A stretch of 64,000 nt of DNA from Alphaproteobacteria bacterium SO-S41 (lineage in GTDB: Bacteria > Pseudomonadota > Alphaproteobacteria > Micropepsales > Micropepsaceae). Location: NCBI GenBank assembly GCA_019670725.1, contig AP024629.1, positions 3,844,001 to 3,908,000 of the forward strand, in the 5' to 3' direction. Within the stretch, counting starts at the first letter, position 1, and every line of letters begins with the position of its first letter. Below are positions 34,293-44,276 of this stretch, one piece after another. Below the pieces are notes generated by a model that saw only the letters and a list, made by a program, of their open reading frames with translations, was not told the DNA's origin and searched no databases. The translations under genes were made by a program, and so were the position numbers.

Positions 34293-35126
34293 TTAGGCGG
34301 CGCCGTTGGCGGCGAACCAGGCGAGCATCTTTGCCCAAGCGTCTTTCGCGTCCGCCTCGACGTAGCTATCGCGATAGTCGGCGTTGAAGCCGTGCGGCGC
34401 GTCGGCATAGACCTCGATCTTTGAGGGATTGTGCGCGGCGACGAGGGCGGCGCGCATCTGCTCGACGGTGTCGAGCGGGATGCCCTTGTCCTGGCCGCCG
34501 TACAAGCCGAGCACCGGAGCCTTCAGCTCGGCGACGAGGTCGATGGGGTGCTTGGGGTGGAGCTCGTCGGGGGTGCCGACCAGCTTGCCGTACCAGGCGG
34601 CGCCCGCCTTCAGCGCGGGATTGTGCGCGGCGTAGAGCCACACGATGCGGCCGCCCCAGCAGAAACCGGTGATGGCGAGCTTGCTGGTGTCGGCAAGTTC
34701 GGTGAGCGCGAAGGCGCCGGTCGCGTCGAGGTCGGACATGACCTGCGCGTCCGGGACCTTGGAGACGATGTCCTTGACCAGCGTGTCGATGTCGGGCGCC
34801 GCGGCGGGATCGCCCTGGCGGGCATAGAGGGCGGGCGCGATCGCGTAGTAGCCGGATTTCGCGAGGCGACGGCAGAGATCCTTGATGTGCTCGTGCACGC
34901 CGAAGATTTCCTGCGTGACGATAACGACCGCCTCGGCCTTGCCGCCAGCGGGACGCGCGCGATAGCCGGGGATCGTGCCGTCGGCGACGGGGATCTTCAC
35001 CTCGGCGACGTCAAGGCCGTCGGCCGGCGTCGCGATGGCGGCGGCGGAAACGGGCAGGACGGATTGCGCGAAGCCGACGCCGAGCGCGGTGATCGCGAAG
35101 GCGCGGCGGGTCAAGGCAAGGGTCAT
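34293..35126 (-). CDS. Dienelactone hydrolase family protein, exported
   Basis: This 277-residue alpha/beta hydrolase carries an N-terminal twin-arginine-like signal (TRRAFAITALGVGFA). Catalytic features are the nucleophile Cys in GFCWGG near residue 159, Asp in GGQDKGIP and His in APHGFNADY, plus the QEIFGVHEH oxyanion-side block. It is expected to hydrolyse lactone or ester bonds in the periplasm; the substrate is unknown. The start at 35126 has an AGGAGCG Shine-Dalgarno. It is the first of four codirectional genes with phoR, phoU and phoB, and its stop is five bases from phoR, so it may be expressed with the Pho genes. Confidence 0.88.
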   Translation of the reverse strand: MTLALTRRAFAITALGVGFAQSVLPVSAAAIATPADGLDVAEVKIPVADGTIPGYRARPAGGKAEAVVIVTQEIFGVHEHIKDLCRRLAKSGYYAIAPALYARQGDPAAAPDIDTLVKDIVSKVPDAQVMSDLDATGAFALTELADTSKLAITGFCWGGRIVWLYAAHNPALKAGAAWYGKLVGTPDELHPKHPIDLVAELKAPVLGLYGGQDKGIPLDTVEQMRAALVAAHNPSKIEVYADAPHGFNADYRDSYVEADAKDAWAKMLAWFAANGAA

Positions 35127-35141
35127 GGGTCGCTCCTGACT

Positions 35142-35176
35142 GACAAGCAAAAGGCGGGCAGATCGCTCTGCCCGCC
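35142..35176 (-). terminator. Intrinsic terminator after the CVNH gene
   Basis: Read on the minus strand, GGCGGGCAGA and TCTGCCCGCC (35153-35176) form a perfect 10-bp stem with a 4-base loop, followed by TTTTGCTTGT. It lies 56 bp downstream of the CVNH gene stop and only 16 bp upstream of the dienelactone hydrolase start, so it may also attenuate entry into that operon. Confidence 0.85.
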
Positions 35177-35196
35177 TCTGGGGTACGCTTATTCGG

Positions 35197-35220
35197 CGGA
35201 CCGGATCAATCGCCGGTCCG
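35197..35220. promoter_or_regulatory. Inverted repeat downstream of CVNH gene
   Basis: CGGACCGG (35197-35204) and CCGGTCCG (35213-35220) form a perfect 8-bp palindrome with an 8-base spacer, between the CVNH stop and the terminator. It could be an extra mRNA-stabilising hairpin or an operator for the downstream operon. Confidence 0.45.
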
Positions 35221-35231
35221 TGTCAGTCGCC

Positions 35232-38200
35232 CTATTGCGGCGGGCACTGGTCCGGGAACGCCGCAGCGTGGTTGGGATTGCTGCAGTCGAGCGGACACTG
35301 GTCGGGCGCGTTCTGCACGTTCGAGGCATCGTTGCAGTCGAGCGGGGCCGGCTCCGGTTCAGGCTGCGGCTCAGGTTCCGCGACCGGTTCGGGTTCCGGC
35401 TCGGGCTGGGGTTCGGGTTCCGCAACCGGCTCCGGTTCGGGCTCAGGTTGCGCCACGGGTTCCGGTTCCGGCGGCGCGGGTTCAGGCTCAGCGACCGGTT
35501 CCGGTTCGGGCTCCGGTTCAGCGACAGGCTCCGGCGGCGTGGGCTCGGGTTCTGCGACCGGTTCCGGCTCGGGCTCCGGTTCGGCGACCGGTTCCGGCGG
35601 CGCGGGCTCGGGCTCCACCGTCGGCTCGGGTTCCGGCGCAGGTTCCGGTTCCGTCGTGGGTTCAGGTACCGGAGCGGGCTCAGCGGCCGGGCACTGTTCC
35701 GGATTCGCCGCCGCCTGCGCGGGATCGGCGCAGTCGACCGGCGCGGGCTCCGGCTCGGTGGTGGGCTCGGTGGTGGGCTCGGTGGTCGGCTCAGTCGTCG
35801 GTTCCGTGGCGGGTTCCGTCGTCGGTTCCGTCGTGGGCTCCGTGGCCGGCTCCGTCGTCGGTTCCGTTGCCGGCTCCGTGGTGGGTTCCGTGGTGGGCTC
35901 CGTCGTCGGCTCGGTCGTGGGCTCCGTTGCCGGCTCAGTTGTCGGTTCCGTCGCGGGTTCTGTCGTCGGTTCCGTCGTGGGCTCCGTCGTCGGCTCGGTT
36001 GTCGGTTCCGTTGTGGGCTCCGTCGTCGGCTCGGTCGTCGGTTCCGTCGTGGGCTCCGTTGCCGGCTCAGTTGTCGGTTCCGTCGCGGGTTCTTTCGTCG
36101 GTTCCGTTGTCGGCTCCGTCGTCGGTTCCGCGGTGGGCTCGGTCGTAGGCTCCGTCGTCGGCTCGGCGGTCGGCTCCGTCGTCGGAGGCGTCGTCGGTTC
36201 CGCGGTGGGCTCCGGCGTCGGTTCCGGCGTCGGGGCTATGGCGGGCTCGGGCACCGGACAGATGTCGGCATGTGCGGCGGCCTGGGCGGGATCGGCGCAA
36301 TCGACCGGCGGCGGCGGGACGGGCTCGGTCTCCGGGATGGACTGCGGGCAGGCCTCCGGATGGGCCGCGGCCTGGGCCGGGTCGTTGCAGTCGGCGATCG
36401 CGACGGAGTCGGGATCGACGGGCGCGCCGTTCTCGTCGGTGCCCTGGACCGCGGGCGCCGTTTCGATTTCGGCGGTCGGGTTGGCGACCGGCTCGACCGG
36501 GATCGGCGCCGGGTCGTCGGGCGTCGGCGGGGCGATCGAGACTTCCGGTTCGGGCGGCGTGAAGCCTTCGCAGGCGAGCTGGCCGTTGAGGTTCTGGATG
36601 TCCTTGCCCGCGCAGTCGGAGATCACGACCGCGGTCGGGATCCACGAGCCGCCGTCGCTGAGGCATTCGGCCGACAGGATGCCGCCGGACACGGAGCCGT
36701 TGCGGCACGTGCCCATCCACGACCCGCCGGGAACCTGTTCGGCCGCAGCGGCCGCCGATTGCGCGGCGATCTGTTCCGGTGTCTGGTCGGGCGTGATGCC
36801 CGCATTGATTTCGGCCGCCGTCGGTTCGGGCGCGAGCTGCGAGGGCACGCCGGGGCAGCCGAGCGCGCCGCTCTCGTTGTAGATGTCGCCCGCGCAGAGC
36901 AGGTAGGGCAGCGAGGTGCCGCGGGCGGTGCCGTCCGGCGCGGCGCAGTCGGCGGTCAGATACTCACCGGCGACATACGCGTTCGTGCAGGACTGCTGGT
37001 AGGAGCCGCCGGGGATCGAGATCTCGGCAGGCTGGCTCGAGGCGACGCCGGCGCAGGTGAGATAGCCCGCGCTGTTGGCGATGTCGCCGGTGCAGCCGCG
37101 ATAGGCGAGCGCGGCGGGAATCCAGTAGCCCGCAGCGTTCGTGCATTCGGCCGAGAGATAGCCGCCAGCCGCGGAGGCGTTGCGGCACGATTGCTGGTAG
37201 GAGCCGGGCGGCAGGTCTTCCGCTTCGACGCGGGGCGAAGGCTCCGGCATCGCGCAGTCGAGATTGCCCGCATTGTTCTCCATCGGCTTGGTGCAGGCGC
37301 CGGTGTCGTAGGCCGTGGTGTGCCATTCGCCGGTCGGCGTCAGGCATTCCGCGGTGAGGATGGCGCCGTCCATGCGGCCGTTGCGGCAGCTCTGCGTCCA
37401 GCCGCCATAGGGGAACGGATGGTCGGGCGGGTTGCAGGTGAGGACGCCGTTGCGGTTCTCGACCGGCGCGGTGCAGGCGCGGGTGTCGAGCGAGGTCTCC
37501 TGCCAGCGATTGCGCTCGTCGCGGCATTCGGCGACCAGCCAGAAGCCGTCATAGGTGGCATTGCGACAGCCATCGACCCAGCCGCCGGTGGGGCGTTCGG
37601 GTTCGACGCGGCCGCAGATCAGGTCGCCATTGTCGTTGTTGATCGGATAGGGGCAGTAGCGCACGTCGAGCGTGCTGCGCCGCCAGTTGCCGCGCTGGGT
37701 GCGGCAGGTCGCCTCCAACGTGTAGCCGTCGAAGTCGGCATTGCGGCAGGTGTTCTGCCAGCCGCCGGCGGGCATGACGAAGTCGTCGCGGCGGCGGCGG
37801 TCGTTCCACGAACTGTCGCAGTAGAGTTCGCCACCATAGTTGAAGATCTCGGACGAGCAGTCAGTCCAGCGGATCTCGGCATTGCGCCACTCGCCGCGCC
37901 AGCCGATGCACTGGCCGTACATCCAGTCGCCATAGACCGTCACATCGCGGCAGGATTCGTACCAGGTGCCGTCGGGCAGGTAGGAGAATTCGTCCGGGAT
38001 GGGCTCGTAATAGGGCTCGTTGTCATAGGGGTCGCGCGGCGGCCGCGGCTTGCTGCGCGGCGGCGGCGGGACGCGCCGCGCCTCGGGGTTGGGACGCGAG
38101 TAATCGCGGGCGCAGACGAGACGGCCGCGATCGTTCTCCACATAGTTGGAGCACTTGCGCCAATTGACCTTGGTGACCTTCCAGCGGCCGCGCTGATCGC

Positions 38201-39119
38201 GGCACTCGGCCGAGAGCACGGCGCCGGTGACCGAGGCGCTGCGGCAGGTGCGCTGCCACCCGCCGGCCGGCGCGTAGGGCTTCGCGCCCGGCGGCAGCGG
38301 CAGCGGCAGGTTGATGCGCGTCGTCTCGATATTACGGTCGCAGACGAGCGTGCCGCCGATATTGGAGATCGGGGCGTTGCACTGCTTCCAGTTGAGGACG
38401 GTGGTGCGCGTACCGCGTTCCCACGTCGCGCAGCGCGCCGCGAGGAGATCGCCGGCGACGTCGAAGGCATCGCAGGTCTGGGCCCACGAGCCGCGCGGCA
38501 CGAAGGATTTGCGCTCGCAGACGAGGCGGCCTTCGACATCGACACCGAAGCCGGTGCGGCAGGCATTGACCGCGATCGGCGGCGACTTGATCCACTTGCC
38601 GCGGCGGTTGAGGCATTCGCCGTTCAGCTGGCCGCCCGAGATGCCGTAGAGGCGGCAGGAGCGCGACCACGAGCCCATCGGGCGCTCGCCGGGGAGGTCG
38701 CAGACGAGCTGGCCGTCGCGGTTGAGGAGCGCGGTGTAGCAGCCCTTCACCTCGACGCGGGTCTTGCGCATGCGGCCGTCGACGCGGAGACATTCGGCGC
38801 CGAGGACGCGGCCGTCATAGACGAAGCTGCGGCACGAGCTGGTCCAGAGGCCGGCGGGGAGTTCGCTGCGGCGGACGCAGGTCAGCTTCGCGTCGATATT
38901 GCGGATGTCGCCGAGACAGTCGGCGATGCGGGCGAGCTTGGCGGGCTTGGCCTTGCCCTTCTGGTCCTTGCAGCGGGCGGAGAGTGTGCCGTCCTTGGAG
39001 ACGGAGGCCTTCTCGCAGGTCTTGAGATAGGAGCCCGAGGGCACCGCCGGCTTCGCTTCGGCCACGCCAAGCGCCAGCACCGCGCCCACGAGGGCAGCGA
39101 CAATGAATTTCAAACGCAT
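35232..39119 (-). CDS. Secreted protein with 12 tandem CVNH domains and Pro/Thr/Glu-rich tail
   Basis: This 1,295-residue exported protein starts with a signal peptide (residues 1-22, [20 protein letters not shown]). Residues about 28-855 contain twelve repeats of about 50-65 residues. Most have four cysteines in the pattern G-S/G-W/Y-xx-(S/T)C-R...L-x-A-E-C...W...C...L-x-C, which is the cyanovirin-N homology fold, a mannose-type glycan-binding domain. Then come two Cys-pair motifs of the form [11 protein letters not shown]...CP, about 40 tandem TTEP units (about 961-1121), a third Cys-pair motif, an EP-rich stretch, and two more at the extreme C-terminus. The ATG at 39119 has an AGGGGAA Shine-Dalgarno. 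No membrane anchor or sortase signal is visible. Surface or cell-wall glycan binding is a reasonable guess. The neighbouring 1,561-residue protein is also secreted but divergently transcribed. Confidence 0.82.
35755..36235 (-). repeat. 12-bp minisatellite encoding TTEP units
   Basis: About 40 copies of a 12-bp unit, with variants coding [12 protein letters not shown] and TKEP, lie in frame inside the CVNH gene. Copies differ mainly at third codon positions, so the array is old enough to have diverged at synonymous sites. Its length could vary by slippage between strains. Confidence 0.9.
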
Positions 39120-39242
39120 GGACTCAGTTCCCCTGGGGCTCGCCCGCGCGGACTTTGTGCAGGACCCATGTCGCTGCGCAAGCGGACGCGCCGTCGCACG
39201 GACGAATTCAGCCCGCACATCTGAATACAAGGTGAACGATGG

Positions 39243-39590: not shown

Positions 39591-42500
39591 ATGAAGCGTT
39601 TGTTTGTGGGCGGGGTGTTGGCCGCCGGACTTGCTCTCAGTTCCCTGATCCACGGCCAGGAAGCGGCGCCCGCGCCCACCAACCTCACCATCGAGACCGC
39701 CGAGACGGTCAAACTGGACCAGCGCGTCGAGACCAAGATCATTATCAGCGATGGCGGCTATGCGGTCGCCGCCTATTACGCGCTGGAGATCCCCTCGGAA
39801 GATGAGGCTGCGCGGTTCGACATCGTCGTCGCCAATCCGACCAATGCGCGGTTGAACCTCACCCTCGCCGACGAACGCGACGGGTCGATCGCGCAGGCCG
39901 ATCGCGCGGAGACCGGCGAGCTGCGCTTCAAGAACTTCGTGCTCGGCAAGGGGCGGCACTTCCTGCGCATCGGGGCGAGCCTGGAGAAAGACGATCCGGT
40001 ACCGCCCTTCACGCTGTCGTTCGAGCGCAAGGGCACGTGGCAGACCGGCGAGGAGCGCGAGCCCAACGGCGATTTCAAGAGCGAGAGCGTCGTGCCGGTC
40101 AGCGTGGTCATGAAAGGCGTGATCGACGACGACAATGACCGCGACTTCGGCGCCTTCGAGGTGACGGGTCCGCTGCAGCTGTGGAAGCTGGAGGCGCGGG
40201 GACCGTCGGCCAATTCGCTGATGCTGTTCAATCCGCAGGGCTCGGAGATCAAGCGCGCCGAGCGCCCGAGCCCGAGCGAGAACCCGCAGCTCTGGAGCGT
40301 GCTGCTGCCGCCGGGGCTCGCGCATGTGCGGGTGTCGGGTCCGCCGGGCGCGTGGGAGATCGTCGCAACGCCGCAAGGGCCGGCCCCCATCGAAGTGCTG
40401 GGCGGCGATGCCGCGGCGCGCAAGGCGGGCGAGATCGACGAGGTCGAGCCCAATGACGGCGTCGACCGGGCGCTGACGCTGCCGCTGGACGGCAGCCGCG
40501 CGGGGCAGATCGAATCCTCCAGCGACGAGGACGTCTATCGCTTCACGCTGGATGCCGAGACGCATGTGCGCCTCAGCCTCACCGGCCCGAACGACATCCG
40601 CCTGCGCGGCAACATGTATCGCGTGTCGACCGGCTGGGATGCGGGCTGGCTGCAGCCCGTGCCGCCGCCGGTCGCGGAAGGTGCGCCGCCGCCAACCATG
40701 GTCAGCATGGACACCGACTACGACCTGCCGCAGGGCGATTATTACGTCGAGCTGCGCGCCGACAAGCCGAGCGCCGTGCCCTATGTGCTGAGCTTGAAGC
40801 GGTTGCCGATCTTCGGACCGGAGACCGACCTGGAGCCCAACGACGATATCGAGGGGGCGCAGCGCGTGCCGGCCTCGCTGCGCATCACCGGCACGATGCG
40901 CAAGGACGATGCCGACTGGTTCCGCCTGCCCGATCTCGACAAGCCCGCGACGCTGACGGTGACCGCGACCGTGGCGCCGGACGATCTGAGGCTGCGGCTG
41001 GGGCGCCTCGCCCTCGAACGCACGGCCTCGGGGCCGGAGCGGTGGAATGTCGATGACAGCGACGGCGACCTGACGCGCAGCGAGGACAAGAAAAGCTTCA
41101 CCATCGACCTGCCCGCGGGGAAGGATCGCTATCTACGCGTCACCAGCGGCGGGCTCGGCGCTTATGACCTGCAGATCGCCTTCAGCGACGGGCCGGTGGC
41201 GGTGCCGCCTTCGACCGAGCTGACGGCGACGCTGGCGCCGGCGGCGAAGGACGTCGCGGCCTTTGCCGAGGTGCACCAGAAGCTAGGCGTCACGCTGAGC
41301 GTCCGCAATGCGGGCAGCGCAGCGGTGACGGCGCCGCTGACCTTCGCGCTGTCGGACGATCGCTGGAGCATCGAAGGCGCCCCGCCGACCGTCGCGATCG
41401 CGCCGGGCGCAAGCGTGGACGTGGCGGTAACGCTGGTCGCGCCGCCGCTGCTGCTCGACGGGACCAAGATCGTCGTCAGCGCGAAGGCCGGCGATGCGTC
41501 GGTCGAGGCGACGGTGGGCGTGACGAGTGCGGCGGCGATGGCCTCGCCCGAGCGGCGCTGGGACCTGCCGGAGAGCATGCTGGGCGGCGTCAATGTCGCC
41601 TGGCGGGCGCTGGGCGGGACGACCACCGAGCCGAACAAGCTGCTGATCGACGGCTACGCGACCAGCGGCACGGCCGAGCGGATCGATGCGAGCGACGAGC
41701 CAGACTATATCGCGGTGCTGGATCTTGCCGGCGATGCGCCGCTGAAGATCGTGGGGGTCACCGTCAATCCGACCATCGGGCCCGACCTGCCGAGCCAGGT
41801 GAAGCGGCTGGCGATCGAGACGTCAGTGGACGGCACCGCCTATACGCGCGTCTTCGAAGGCGAGATCGGCCCGCGCCAGCGTGAGTATGCGATCCCGTTC
41901 GCGACGCCGGTCGAGGCGAAGTTCGTGAAGGTCCTGCCGATCACGGCGCAGGGCAACAATAACGCCGTGCCGATGATCGGCGAGGTGAAGGTGATCGCGG
42001 AAGCCGCGACCGCCGCGACGATCGCACCGGGCGGCTTCAATGTCGCCGATCCTGCGCTGGGCGGCTTCCTGACGACGTTCCATCCGATCAGCAGCTATGC
42101 CTTCAAGATGATCAAGCCGGACACGTCGACGGACGCGGCCTATATCGGCAAGGACGACAAGCGGCAGATCGACTGGACCATCGCCTTCCGCAACCAGCGT
42201 GCGGCGCTGCTGTCGAGCATCACCTGGGAAGACCCGACCGATCTCGATCCGCGCACCACGATCGACCGTGTCGAGGTCGAAACCGCGATGGCGGCGGACG
42301 GACCGTTCACGAAGGCCGGGACCTGGGAGATCACCCGCAACGGCGACGGGACCACGCAGCCCTTTACCTTCCCGGCCGGGACCTGGGCGCGCTTCGTGCG
42401 CTTCAACGTGGTGGTGCCGCCCTATAACGAGGAGCTACACGGCAACTATTTCCGGATGCCGAAGGTGTTGAAGATCCTCGAGGCGCCGTGGAGTGCGGCG

Positions 42501-44276
42501 GCGGGATCGATCGTCGCCGAATGGGGCGAGCTGACCAGCGACGGGCCGTATGAAAGACTGAACCCGCGTCCGCTGCCGCAGGGCATCGCGGCCCTTGAGG
42601 CCGGCGGCGACACCAAGGAGACGGCGCGCGTGCTGCCTGCCGGCGAGGTGAAGCCCGGCCGGGTCGCGGCGGGCACGCGCAGCGAATGGTGGGCGATCGA
42701 CGTGCCCGCCGAGGGGCAGTCGCTGGTCCTCACTTTGGCCGGCAGGCCCGCGCTGAGCGTCACGGCGGCGATGCAGGATGCGTCCGGCAAGGCCGTGTCA
42801 CTGGTCGTCAGCCAGGATGACGGCAAGACGCGCATCGCGGCGAGCAAGGTCTCGCCCGGGCGCTATTACGTGAAGGTGGAAGAGCCGCCGCGCTCGATCG
42901 CGCTGGTGTGGGACACGTCGGGGAGCGTCGGGCCTTATGTGCCGACCATCATCCAGTCGATCCGCGGCTTCTCGCGCTCGCTGACACCGGGACGGGACGA
43001 GGTGGCGCTGCTGCCCTTCTCCGATCCCAAAGCGGTGCCGATCCTGACCGACTGGACCGGCGATCCGCTGACCGCCTTCGCGGCGCTCAACGGCTATGAC
43101 TGGCACGACCAGTCGTCGAACGCCGAAGGCGGCGTGGTCGGCGCGGCGGACGCGCTGGACGGGCGGCCGGGGACGCGGGCGGCGATCCTGATCACCGACT
43201 TCGCGACGGGCAGCGACTATGACCAGCGCATGCAGAGCTATGACCTGATCGGCAAGGTGCGGCCGCGCATCTTCAGCTTCGCCATCCCCTCGGGCAGCGA
43301 TGCCGACGGGGCGGCGGAAGAGCGCGGGCTGATGCTGCAATACACCGCGCTCTCGGGCGGCACGGCGACCTATGCGGGGACGCCGGGCGATCTGGAGAAG
43401 GCGTTCGCGCTGACCGTCGCGGCGCTGAGGGCGCCGAAGGACTACACGATCGCCGCCGAGATCGGCTTCAAGCCGCCGGAGCCGGGCCATGTGCAGGTGA
43501 CGGTGCCGGAAAGCGCGGAAGCGCCGCCGGCGTCGAAGGACCGCGCGGTGCTGGTGATCCTGGATGCGTCGGGCTCGATGCTGAAGAAGTTGGGCAAGAA
43601 GCGGCGCATCGACATCGCCAAGGACACGCTCAACGAGCTGACGCAGACCATGCTGCCGGAGGGGACGCCGCTCGCCATGCGGGTGTTCGGCGACACCAAG
43701 CCCGATAGCTGCGAGACCAATCTGCGCCTGCCGCTCGCGCCGCTCGACCGGGCTGCTGCGAAGGGCGTGGTGGACAAGATCGTCTCGATTAACAAGGCGA
43801 AGACGGCGATCGGCGCCTCGCTGGCGCTGGCGGCCGACGATCTCGGCGGGACCGCCGGGCAGAAGCTGATCATCCTCATCACCGACGGCGAGGAGACCTG
43901 CGACGGCGACCCCGCCGCGGAGATCGAGGCGCTGAAAGCCAAGGGCGTCGATGCGCGGATCAGCATTGTCGGCTTTGCGGTGGACGACCAGGCGCTGAAG
44001 GACACGTTCTCGGCCTGGGCGGCGGCGGGCGGCGGCGGCTATTTCGACGCGACCAAGCCGGGCGATCTCGCACCCGCCGTGCGCAAGGCGCTGCTGCCGC
44101 CGTTCGAAGTGGTGGCGGCGGACGGCAGCGTCGTCGCGACGGGCGTCGCCGGCGGCGAGCCCGTCGAGGCGCCGCCCGGCACCTATACGATCCGCGTCCT
44201 CACCGATCCCGTGCAGGAATTCCCCGGCATCGTCATCGAAAGCGGAGGCATGGCGAGCGTGGCGTTGGGTCAGTGA
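39591..44276 (+). CDS. Large secreted protein with PPC-like and two von Willebrand A domains
   Basis: This 1,561-residue exported protein has a signal peptide at residues 1-22. Three EPN motifs (EREPNGD near 157, EVEPNDG near 284, DLEPNDD near 413) each start a beta-rich segment like bacterial pre-peptidase C-terminal domains. Two segments around 720-790 and 820-950 look like F5/8-type C (discoidin) folds. Two von Willebrand A domains follow, with MIDAS motifs DTSGS near residue 1108 and DASGS near 1325, both intact. A short beta domain ends the protein. This architecture suggests extracellular or periplasmic protein or glycan binding. No catalytic residues were recognised. It shares its last base with the VanZ gene start. 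Confidence 0.85.
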   Translation: MKRLFVGGVLAAGLALSSLIHGQEAAPAPTNLTIETAETVKLDQRVETKIIISDGGYAVAAYYALEIPSEDEAARFDIVVANPTNARLNLTLADERDGSIAQADRAETGELRFKNFVLGKGRHFLRIGASLEKDDPVPPFTLSFERKGTWQTGEEREPNGDFKSESVVPVSVVMKGVIDDDNDRDFGAFEVTGPLQLWKLEARGPSANSLMLFNPQGSEIKRAERPSPSENPQLWSVLLPPGLAHVRVSGPPGAWEIVATPQGPAPIEVLGGDAAARKAGEIDEVEPNDGVDRALTLPLDGSRAGQIESSSDEDVYRFTLDAETHVRLSLTGPNDIRLRGNMYRVSTGWDAGWLQPVPPPVAEGAPPPTMVSMDTDYDLPQGDYYVELRADKPSAVPYVLSLKRLPIFGPETDLEPNDDIEGAQRVPASLRITGTMRKDDADWFRLPDLDKPATLTVTATVAPDDLRLRLGRLALERTASGPERWNVDDSDGDLTRSEDKKSFTIDLPAGKDRYLRVTSGGLGAYDLQIAFSDGPVAVPPSTELTATLAPAAKDVAAFAEVHQKLGVTLSVRNAGSAAVTAPLTFALSDDRWSIEGAPPTVAIAPGASVDVAVTLVAPPLLLDGTKIVVSAKAGDASVEATVGVTSAAAMASPERRWDLPESMLGGVNVAWRALGGTTTEPNKLLIDGYATSGTAERIDASDEPDYIAVLDLAGDAPLKIVGVTVNPTIGPDLPSQVKRLAIETSVDGTAYTRVFEGEIGPRQREYAIPFATPVEAKFVKVLPITAQGNNNAVPMIGEVKVIAEAATAATIAPGGFNVADPALGGFLTTFHPISSYAFKMIKPDTSTDAAYIGKDDKRQIDWTIAFRNQRAALLSSITWEDPTDLDPRTTIDRVEVETAMAADGPFTKAGTWEITRNGDGTTQPFTFPAGTWARFVRFNVVVPPYNEELHGNYFRMPKVLKILEAPWSAAAGSIVAEWGELTSDGPYERLNPRPLPQGIAALEAGGDTKETARVLPAGEVKPGRVAAGTRSEWWAIDVPAEGQSLVLTLAGRPALSVTAAMQDASGKAVSLVVSQDDGKTRIAASKVSPGRYYVKVEEPPRSIALVWDTSGSVGPYVPTIIQSIRGFSRSLTPGRDEVALLPFSDPKAVPILTDWTGDPLTAFAALNGYDWHDQSSNAEGGVVGAADALDGRPGTRAAILITDFATGSDYDQRMQSYDLIGKVRPRIFSFAIPSGSDADGAAEERGLMLQYTALSGGTATYAGTPGDLEKAFALTVAALRAPKDYTIAAEIGFKPPEPGHVQVTVPESAEAPPASKDRAVLVILDASGSMLKKLGKKRRIDIAKDTLNELTQTMLPEGTPLAMRVFGDTKPDSCETNLRLPLAPLDRAAAKGVVDKIVSINKAKTAIGASLALAADDLGGTAGQKLIILITDGEETCDGDPAAEIEALKAKGVDARISIVGFAVDDQALKDTFSAWAAAGGGGYFDATKPGDLAPAVRKALLPPFEVVAADGSVVATGVAGGEPVEAPPGTYTIRVLTDPVQEFPGIVIESGGMASVALGQ

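Follow-up and report, generated by a model that had tools for sequence, protein, structure and literature searches.

If the repeats of a CVNH lectin pair by exchanging hairpins, as in cyanovirin-N (CV-N), then twelve repeats are expected to form six domains. In contrast, if each repeat folds back on itself, twelve separate small modules are expected. This question is raised by a gene on the minus strand of a 64,000-nucleotide stretch of the genome of Alphaproteobacteria bacterium SO-S41 (contig AP024629.1, positions 3,844,001 to 3,908,000; hereafter the window), which encodes twelve CVNH-related repeats with four cysteines apiece. It is probable that these repeats are autonomous, closed half-CVNH modules and that the exported protein that carries them twelve-fold has a glycan-binding role.

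A twelve-repeat array related to CVNH

The open reading frame (ORF) runs from an ATG at 39119 to a stop at 35232, as the initial annotation had placed it. The encoded protein consists of a signal peptide, the twelve four-cysteine repeats, and an acidic Pro/Glu/Thr tail that contains a 12-bp minisatellite and five DC..CP motifs. The features needed for the main argument are as follows.

35232..39119, minus strand: gene for the twelve-module half-CVNH protein (1295 aa; Pfam CVNH match; orthologs)
39054..39119, minus strand: N-terminal signal peptide, residues 1-22 (hydropathy and inspection by eye; no lipobox Cys)
36567..39041, minus strand: array of twelve four-Cys half-CVNH modules, residues 27-851 (Pfam; module alignment)
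37251..37772, minus strand: modules 7-9, residues 450-623 (AlphaFold2; stretch folded, 37242-37781)

The modules start at residues 27, 88, 147, 208, 284, 382, 450, 510, 570, 637, 703 and 797. Their four-cysteine spacing occurs 12 times in residues 1-856, whereas 2000 shuffles gave 0.11 occurrences on average and never more than 2; it is therefore not due to chance, and the twelve four-cysteine repeats reported initially are borne out. Mean mutual identity among the modules is 36%, and an N-x-x-G hairpin turn is retained in ten of the twelve. The array is tandem and unevenly spaced, with linkers of 5 to 44 residues: those between modules 1-4 and 7-9 measure 5-6 residues (6 within 7-9), while modules 5 and 6 are separated by 44 residues, and modules 11 and 12 by 40.

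The relationship to CVNH that the initial annotation had proposed was confirmed by profile searches. The Pfam CVNH model (PF08881) matches ten stretches with 144.7 bits (cut-off 24.5), and NCBIfam NF052356, "mannose-binding lectin", matches with 193.3 bits (cut-off 80); each is the only match of the protein in its database. Both models span two sequence repeats (102 positions and 103 residues, respectively), and the best-matching stretches, residues 455-560 for Pfam and 453-561 for NCBIfam, each comprise two modules. As described in PMC4926178, CV-N itself contains two sequence repeats, with which its sugar-binding halves A (1-38/90-101) and B (39-89) do not coincide. Because the Pfam model and its best match both cover two repeats, each 54-residue unit is, at the level of sequence, one CV-N repeat and thus half a CVNH domain. 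The twelve domains counted in the initial annotation would therefore usually be counted as six, although the number twelve may hold if each half is autonomous.

Four cysteines per half-unit are unusual, given that CV-N repeats have two, a point on which the initial annotation did not remark. The first two (C1 and C2) are in register across all twelve modules and match the cysteines of CV-N, as seen for modules 7-8 and in a profile of module triplets. In the profile alignment to CV-N, C3 falls in a 3-residue CV-N gap just ahead of the hairpin, beside the boundary between the halves, and C4 falls at the hairpin end. Relative to two-cysteine relatives, the gap at the C3 insertion is four to five residues.

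Predicted fold and module numbers in relatives

Modules 7-9 were folded with AlphaFold2 from a 37-row alignment, which gave a mean predicted local distance difference test score (pLDDT) of 85.2 and a predicted template modelling score (pTM) of 0.41. High local and low global confidence are consistent with separate beads. When compared to solved CVNH chains, modules 7, 8 and 9 aligned in rows 1-15 of the results over 48-56 residues at 1.4-2.4 Å (Z 7.0-8.4), with an aligned range that spans the chain from first to last residue, or nearly so. Weaker CVNH rows include microvirin (Z 4.8, 3.3 Å) and NcCVNH (Z 2.8, 43 residues). Two-module alignments occur only in rows 17-21, at a root mean square deviation of 12.7-13.1 Å, and we take these rows to be CV-N entries that consist of swapped forms or contain them. 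Judging from the end points of the alignments, a match of about 50 residues distributed across the full CV-N range is what half A (1-38/90-101; PMC4926178) would be expected to give. Structure prediction, which had been proposed as a check on the CVNH assignment, thus recovers CVNH chains for modules 7-9, but each over only about half a CVNH.

As a control, the two-cysteine pair of L080, whose genome belongs to the same family, was predicted from a 4-row alignment, with pLDDT 94.8 and pTM 0.81, and aligned with CV-N over 97 residues (1.8 Å, Z 15.6), which amounts to one whole CVNH. Therefore, the method detects a whole domain where one is expected and half-modules in 7-9, where AlphaFold2 did not predict the hairpin-exchanged, two-repeat domain of about 100 residues that the control formed.

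The cysteine positions suggest how a module might close. The C1-C2 pair would be the CV-N disulfide, whereas C3, in the short insertion beside the hinge, and C4, in the last strand, would form a second disulfide that staples the hairpin. The hairpin of each module would then fold back on its own repeat, unlike the partner swap of canonical CVNH, and the closed module would approximate CV-N half A made from one contiguous piece of chain. Once exported by its signal peptide, the chain would fold into a string of twelve small modules, each stapled by a disulfide, with linkers between them that are short in some places and long in others.

If neighbouring repeats had to pair, then proteins with a single repeat or an odd number would not be expected. 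With the window genome included in every sample, PF08881 matches were found in 14 of 41 relatives, 25 of 96 family genomes, 9 of 385 genomes in a sample of the class and 5 of 398 in a sample of the phylum; a profile of the four-cysteine module matched 13 and 11 genomes of the latter two samples, respectively. Searches with the alignment behind this profile (A5) are biased to four-cysteine modules, from which it was built. Among 48 four-cysteine proteins, including that of the window, 14 have one module, 11 have two, 17 have three, two have four, one has five and three have twelve, so that the number is odd in 32. Twelve is the highest number among the loci read. In contrast, the four two-cysteine proteins (L080, L088, L100 and L101) all have exactly two repeats, 4-6 residues apart. 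"Exactly two" differs between the groups with a Fisher p of 0.005, a value that ignores phylogeny and comes from a sample enriched for four-cysteine proteins by one of two queries.

The count started from 59 rows, from which L092 was already absent because its gene duplicates that of L053. Dropped from it were L038 twice (contig edge, shifted frame), L057 at 300-1400 (18 bits, 3 Cys), L103 (matches of 21 and 35 bits, with 3 and 4 Cys, respectively), L170 and L171, where a single weak match contains six Cys, and L172; the four two-cysteine proteins were tallied apart. L041 was retained despite a third module without C4. Positive places outside the count are G019:C226 and G310:C2. A scan of genome contigs returned only two orthologs from the genus and one distant Sphingomonadales contig, and the only record from the plasmid search, a Rhizobium lusitanum plasmid outside the 48, has three four-cysteine modules annotated just as "CVNH domain-containing protein".

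Relatives differ in architecture as well as in number. Linkers among four-cysteine modules range from 5 to 128 residues, and in L078, which has five modules, a beta/gamma-crystallin domain lies between the first and second. A single module is combined with a beta/gamma-crystallin domain in L106, L107, L173 and L176 according to Pfam, and in L108, L109 and L169 by eye; all seven of these small proteins come from one family of the class (f63). Other single modules, for instance L104 and L105, have no second recognised domain. The second half-CVNH protein of the window genome (G000:C1:1650052-1650780; L054:3053-3781) has three four-cysteine modules and ends right after the third. Additionally, L174:1798-3327 and L175:1137-2393 have one module followed by a region that is repetitive and probably helical, with units that by eye measure about 80 residues in L174; here Pfam returned only CCDC-167, just above the cut-off, in L174 and nothing in L175. 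The weak single-repeat matches with six cysteines, L170:1330-1779 and L171:1798-2760, may represent yet another disulfide pattern within this type of module.

Six ordinary CVNH domains were considered first. Neighbouring modules (1+2, 3+4 and so on) would pair with CV-N-like hairpin exchange, and the extra disulfide would merely stabilise the hairpin. This arrangement is unlikely, as pairs 5+6 and 11+12 would need the linkers of 44 and 40 residues, most four-cysteine proteins have odd numbers and 14 have a single module, and the prediction for modules 7-9 contained no two-module CVNH while the control gave a full one. It does agree with the even number twelve, with the linkers of modules 1-4 and 7-9, which are close in length to the 4-6 residues of two-cysteine proteins, and with a best Pfam match that covers two modules.

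The first two of these points weigh against autonomous half-modules, as do several others. A normal CVNH can accommodate a long insert between its repeats, as in type III proteins (fungal CVNH-LysM), so long linkers alone prove nothing. The two-cysteine group comprises four proteins only, and L172 (one match at 24 bits with two cysteines within it and more downstream) is a possible counter-example to paired two-cysteine repeats. Of the five models for the control, three were of poor quality (mean pLDDT 48-53), and for the four-cysteine fold the AlphaFold2 result covers modules 7-9 only. Finally, a monomer prediction may give a closed form for a protein that truly swaps between chains.

The last point bears on another possibility, in which hairpins are exchanged between chains, or in open daisy chains, to give swapped oligomers or fibres, and relatives with odd numbers or single modules swap between molecules. 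CV-N itself forms swapped dimers (PMC4926178), and exchange between molecules would account for single modules without a closed fold; even so, it appears quite improbable here, since the C3 insertion and its C4 partner suit a turn back onto the same repeat and the closed form was predicted with confidence, albeit for single chains.

Orthologs, tail and gene neighbourhood

Twelve-module orthologs with nearly equal linker lengths are present in three of the five genomes of the genus, including that of the window. Over the array, the window protein is 71% identical to one of the two orthologs and 52% identical to the other. The two genomes without an ortholog are 91% and 88% complete, and thus the absence there is not sure. 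When modules were compared one by one, all 12 had their best match at the corresponding position in the ortholog from genome G003, as did 10 of the 12 in that from genome G002. As modules match position by position across orthologs while sharing only 36% identity within the protein, the array is, on sequence comparison, old and kept rather than recently expanded.

The conservation of the minus-strand protein in two other genomes of the genus is also why an antisense open frame of 1597 aa (window 34431-39224, plus strand) was rejected as a real gene. It is taken as an artefact of composition, with the repeats probably helping to keep it free of stops.

The tail comprises the following features, all on the minus strand.

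35235..36551, minus strand: Pro/Glu/Thr-rich acidic tail, residues 857-1295 (composition; net charge -103)
36345..36392, minus strand: DC..CP motif 1, residues 910-925 (motif search)
36255..36302, minus strand: DC..CP motif 2, residues 940-955 (motif search)
35751..36233, minus strand: 12-bp minisatellite coding TTEP-type units (Tandem Repeats Finder)
35688..35735, minus strand: DC..CP motif 3, residues 1129-1144 (motif search)
35241..35339, minus strand: C-terminal tandem DC..CP motifs 4 and 5, residues 1261-1293 (translation, motif search)

Its 439 residues are 29% Pro, 20% Glu, 17% Thr and 13% Ala. The tails of the orthologs vary in sequence and are still Pro/Glu-rich and acidic (net -90 and -85). 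Tandem Repeats Finder reports 40.2 copies of the 12-bp unit, and the "about 40" TTEP units noted initially are only an approximate description: exact TTEP occurs 27 times, and the longest unbroken run of xxEP is 36 units, 26 of which are TTEP. All five DC..CP motifs of the initial annotation were located, starting at residues 910, 940, 1129, 1261 and 1278. A genome-wide sorting tag was considered for this motif and rejected: a profile search of the own genome recovered four of this gene's five copies and, elsewhere, a single weak match (E 1.14), and across the 96 family genomes matches occurred in three, all of one genus, so that the motif is no general tag. In G003, a TIR-domain protein (L119:3211-5133, minus strand), which by eye probably has a membrane helix, carries a Pro/Glu-rich tail and terminates in two tandem DC..CP motifs. 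This pair is like that of the CVNH array protein and is therefore a C-terminal element common to two unrelated G003 proteins.

The signal peptide was identified by eye and from hydropathy (best 19-residue mean of 2.11, at residue 3). Beyond residue 40, the window protein has no strongly hydrophobic stretch (19-residue mean of at most 0.93), and no lipobox with its cysteine was found after the signal peptide (AEA-KP, judged by eye against the general lipobox motif), in agreement with the earlier remark that no anchor is visible. The G002 ortholog has a lipobox-like signal at its N-terminus (LTLAAC-G, by eye). Members of this protein family are therefore not necessarily released in free form, and in that species the protein may plausibly be anchored in the outer membrane.

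The gene neighbourhood is the same in G003, with an aminotransferase-like gene, GcrA, PhoB, PhoU, PhoR, a dienelactone hydrolase and a divergent VWA protein (some names assigned by eye). In G002 it differs within the stretch compared, save for a 31% match to PhoB. The divergent neighbour in the window (39591-44276, plus strand) is a protein of 1561 aa with VWA, F5/8 type C and pre-peptidase C-terminal domains; it adjoins the array in G003 too (60% identity) and was not found near the G002 ortholog within the same stretch. A Pfam scan found no sugar-active enzyme among seven neighbouring ORFs.

Proposed function and comparison with known systems

In CV-N, the sugar site is made of residues before C1, residues after C2 and residues in the hairpin turn. 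In a closed module all of these parts would come from the same repeat, and therefore one site per module, and up to twelve per protein, would be possible. Mannose-specific CVNH lectins recognise Man-alpha-1,2-Man termini. Binding to a mannose-type or other surface or matrix polysaccharide would be expected to serve cell-cell or matrix attachment, or matrix organisation, with the acidic tail as a possible stalk or spacer. We infer a secreted, disulfide-rich, multivalent binder, as did the initial annotation.

Against a sugar-binding role, the residues that precede C1 and follow C2 differ among the twelve modules. Together with the lack of a sugar-active enzyme among the seven neighbouring ORFs, this could mean that the CVNH scaffold no longer binds sugar and serves as a protease-resistant structural surface spacer or binds another ligand. 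Such a role seems rather doubtful, given that the modules are conserved one by one in two orthologs and that most retain the N-x-x-G hairpin turn. It concerns function and is compatible with the closed-module fold, and hence the probabilities assigned to the readings discussed here overlap and do not sum to one.

The point of interest is not the number twelve but a half-domain with a probable staple of its own, used from one upward. CV-N is well known as a pseudo-symmetric, strand-exchanged lectin and an antiviral lead; the origin of its exchanged fold from a single repeat is, to our knowledge, an open question. We tentatively suggest that the four-cysteine unit is an autonomous, one-site half-CVNH fold, that the single-module proteins (L104-L109) represent the CVNH state before duplication and hairpin exchange, or after their undoing, and that the C3-C4 staple decides whether a half closes on itself or exchanges into a whole. 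Judged by its relatives and by the predicted folds, the four-cysteine half-module may be a minimal free-standing form of the CVNH lectin fold. If so, a natural, self-folding half of 54 residues would be a candidate for the missing intermediate and a smaller one-site scaffold, and the natural series of 1, 2, 3, 4, 5 and 12 modules could be used to test how valency sets lectin avidity. Neither half-CVNH modules nor CVNH arrays in Alphaproteobacteria were found among the matches listed for titles and abstract openings of open-licence literature, a body of text outside which most subscription papers fall.

Several known systems are close to the window protein. The half-CVNH proteins of related genomes with beta/gamma-crystallin domains (L106, L107, L046, L078 and others) share the same four-cysteine module; they differ in having one to five modules plus the crystallin domain, and neither a TTEP-like tail nor a DC..CP pair was seen by eye in the sequences inspected. 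NF052356, the only NCBIfam match of the window protein, is similar well above its cut-off; however, it describes 103 residues with two repeats, and its name appears to reflect the annotation of its members. Type III CVNH (fungal CVNH-LysM) is alike in that CVNH repeats are split by other sequence, with multivalency reached through more repeats. The same applies to the Nested CV-N design (PMC4926178), and in both two repeats still pair into one CVNH, whereas the four-cysteine relatives occur with single and odd numbers. Finally, CV-N and the CVNH family (PF08881) share with the window protein the sequence family and the positions of C1 and C2, and modules 7-9 are each predicted to superpose on about half of CV-N. 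In contrast to CV-N, which is one domain of two hairpin-exchanged repeats with two cysteines each, each repeat of the window protein has four cysteines and a hinge-side insertion, the half-fold is predicted to be closed, and its relatives have any number of repeats, including one.

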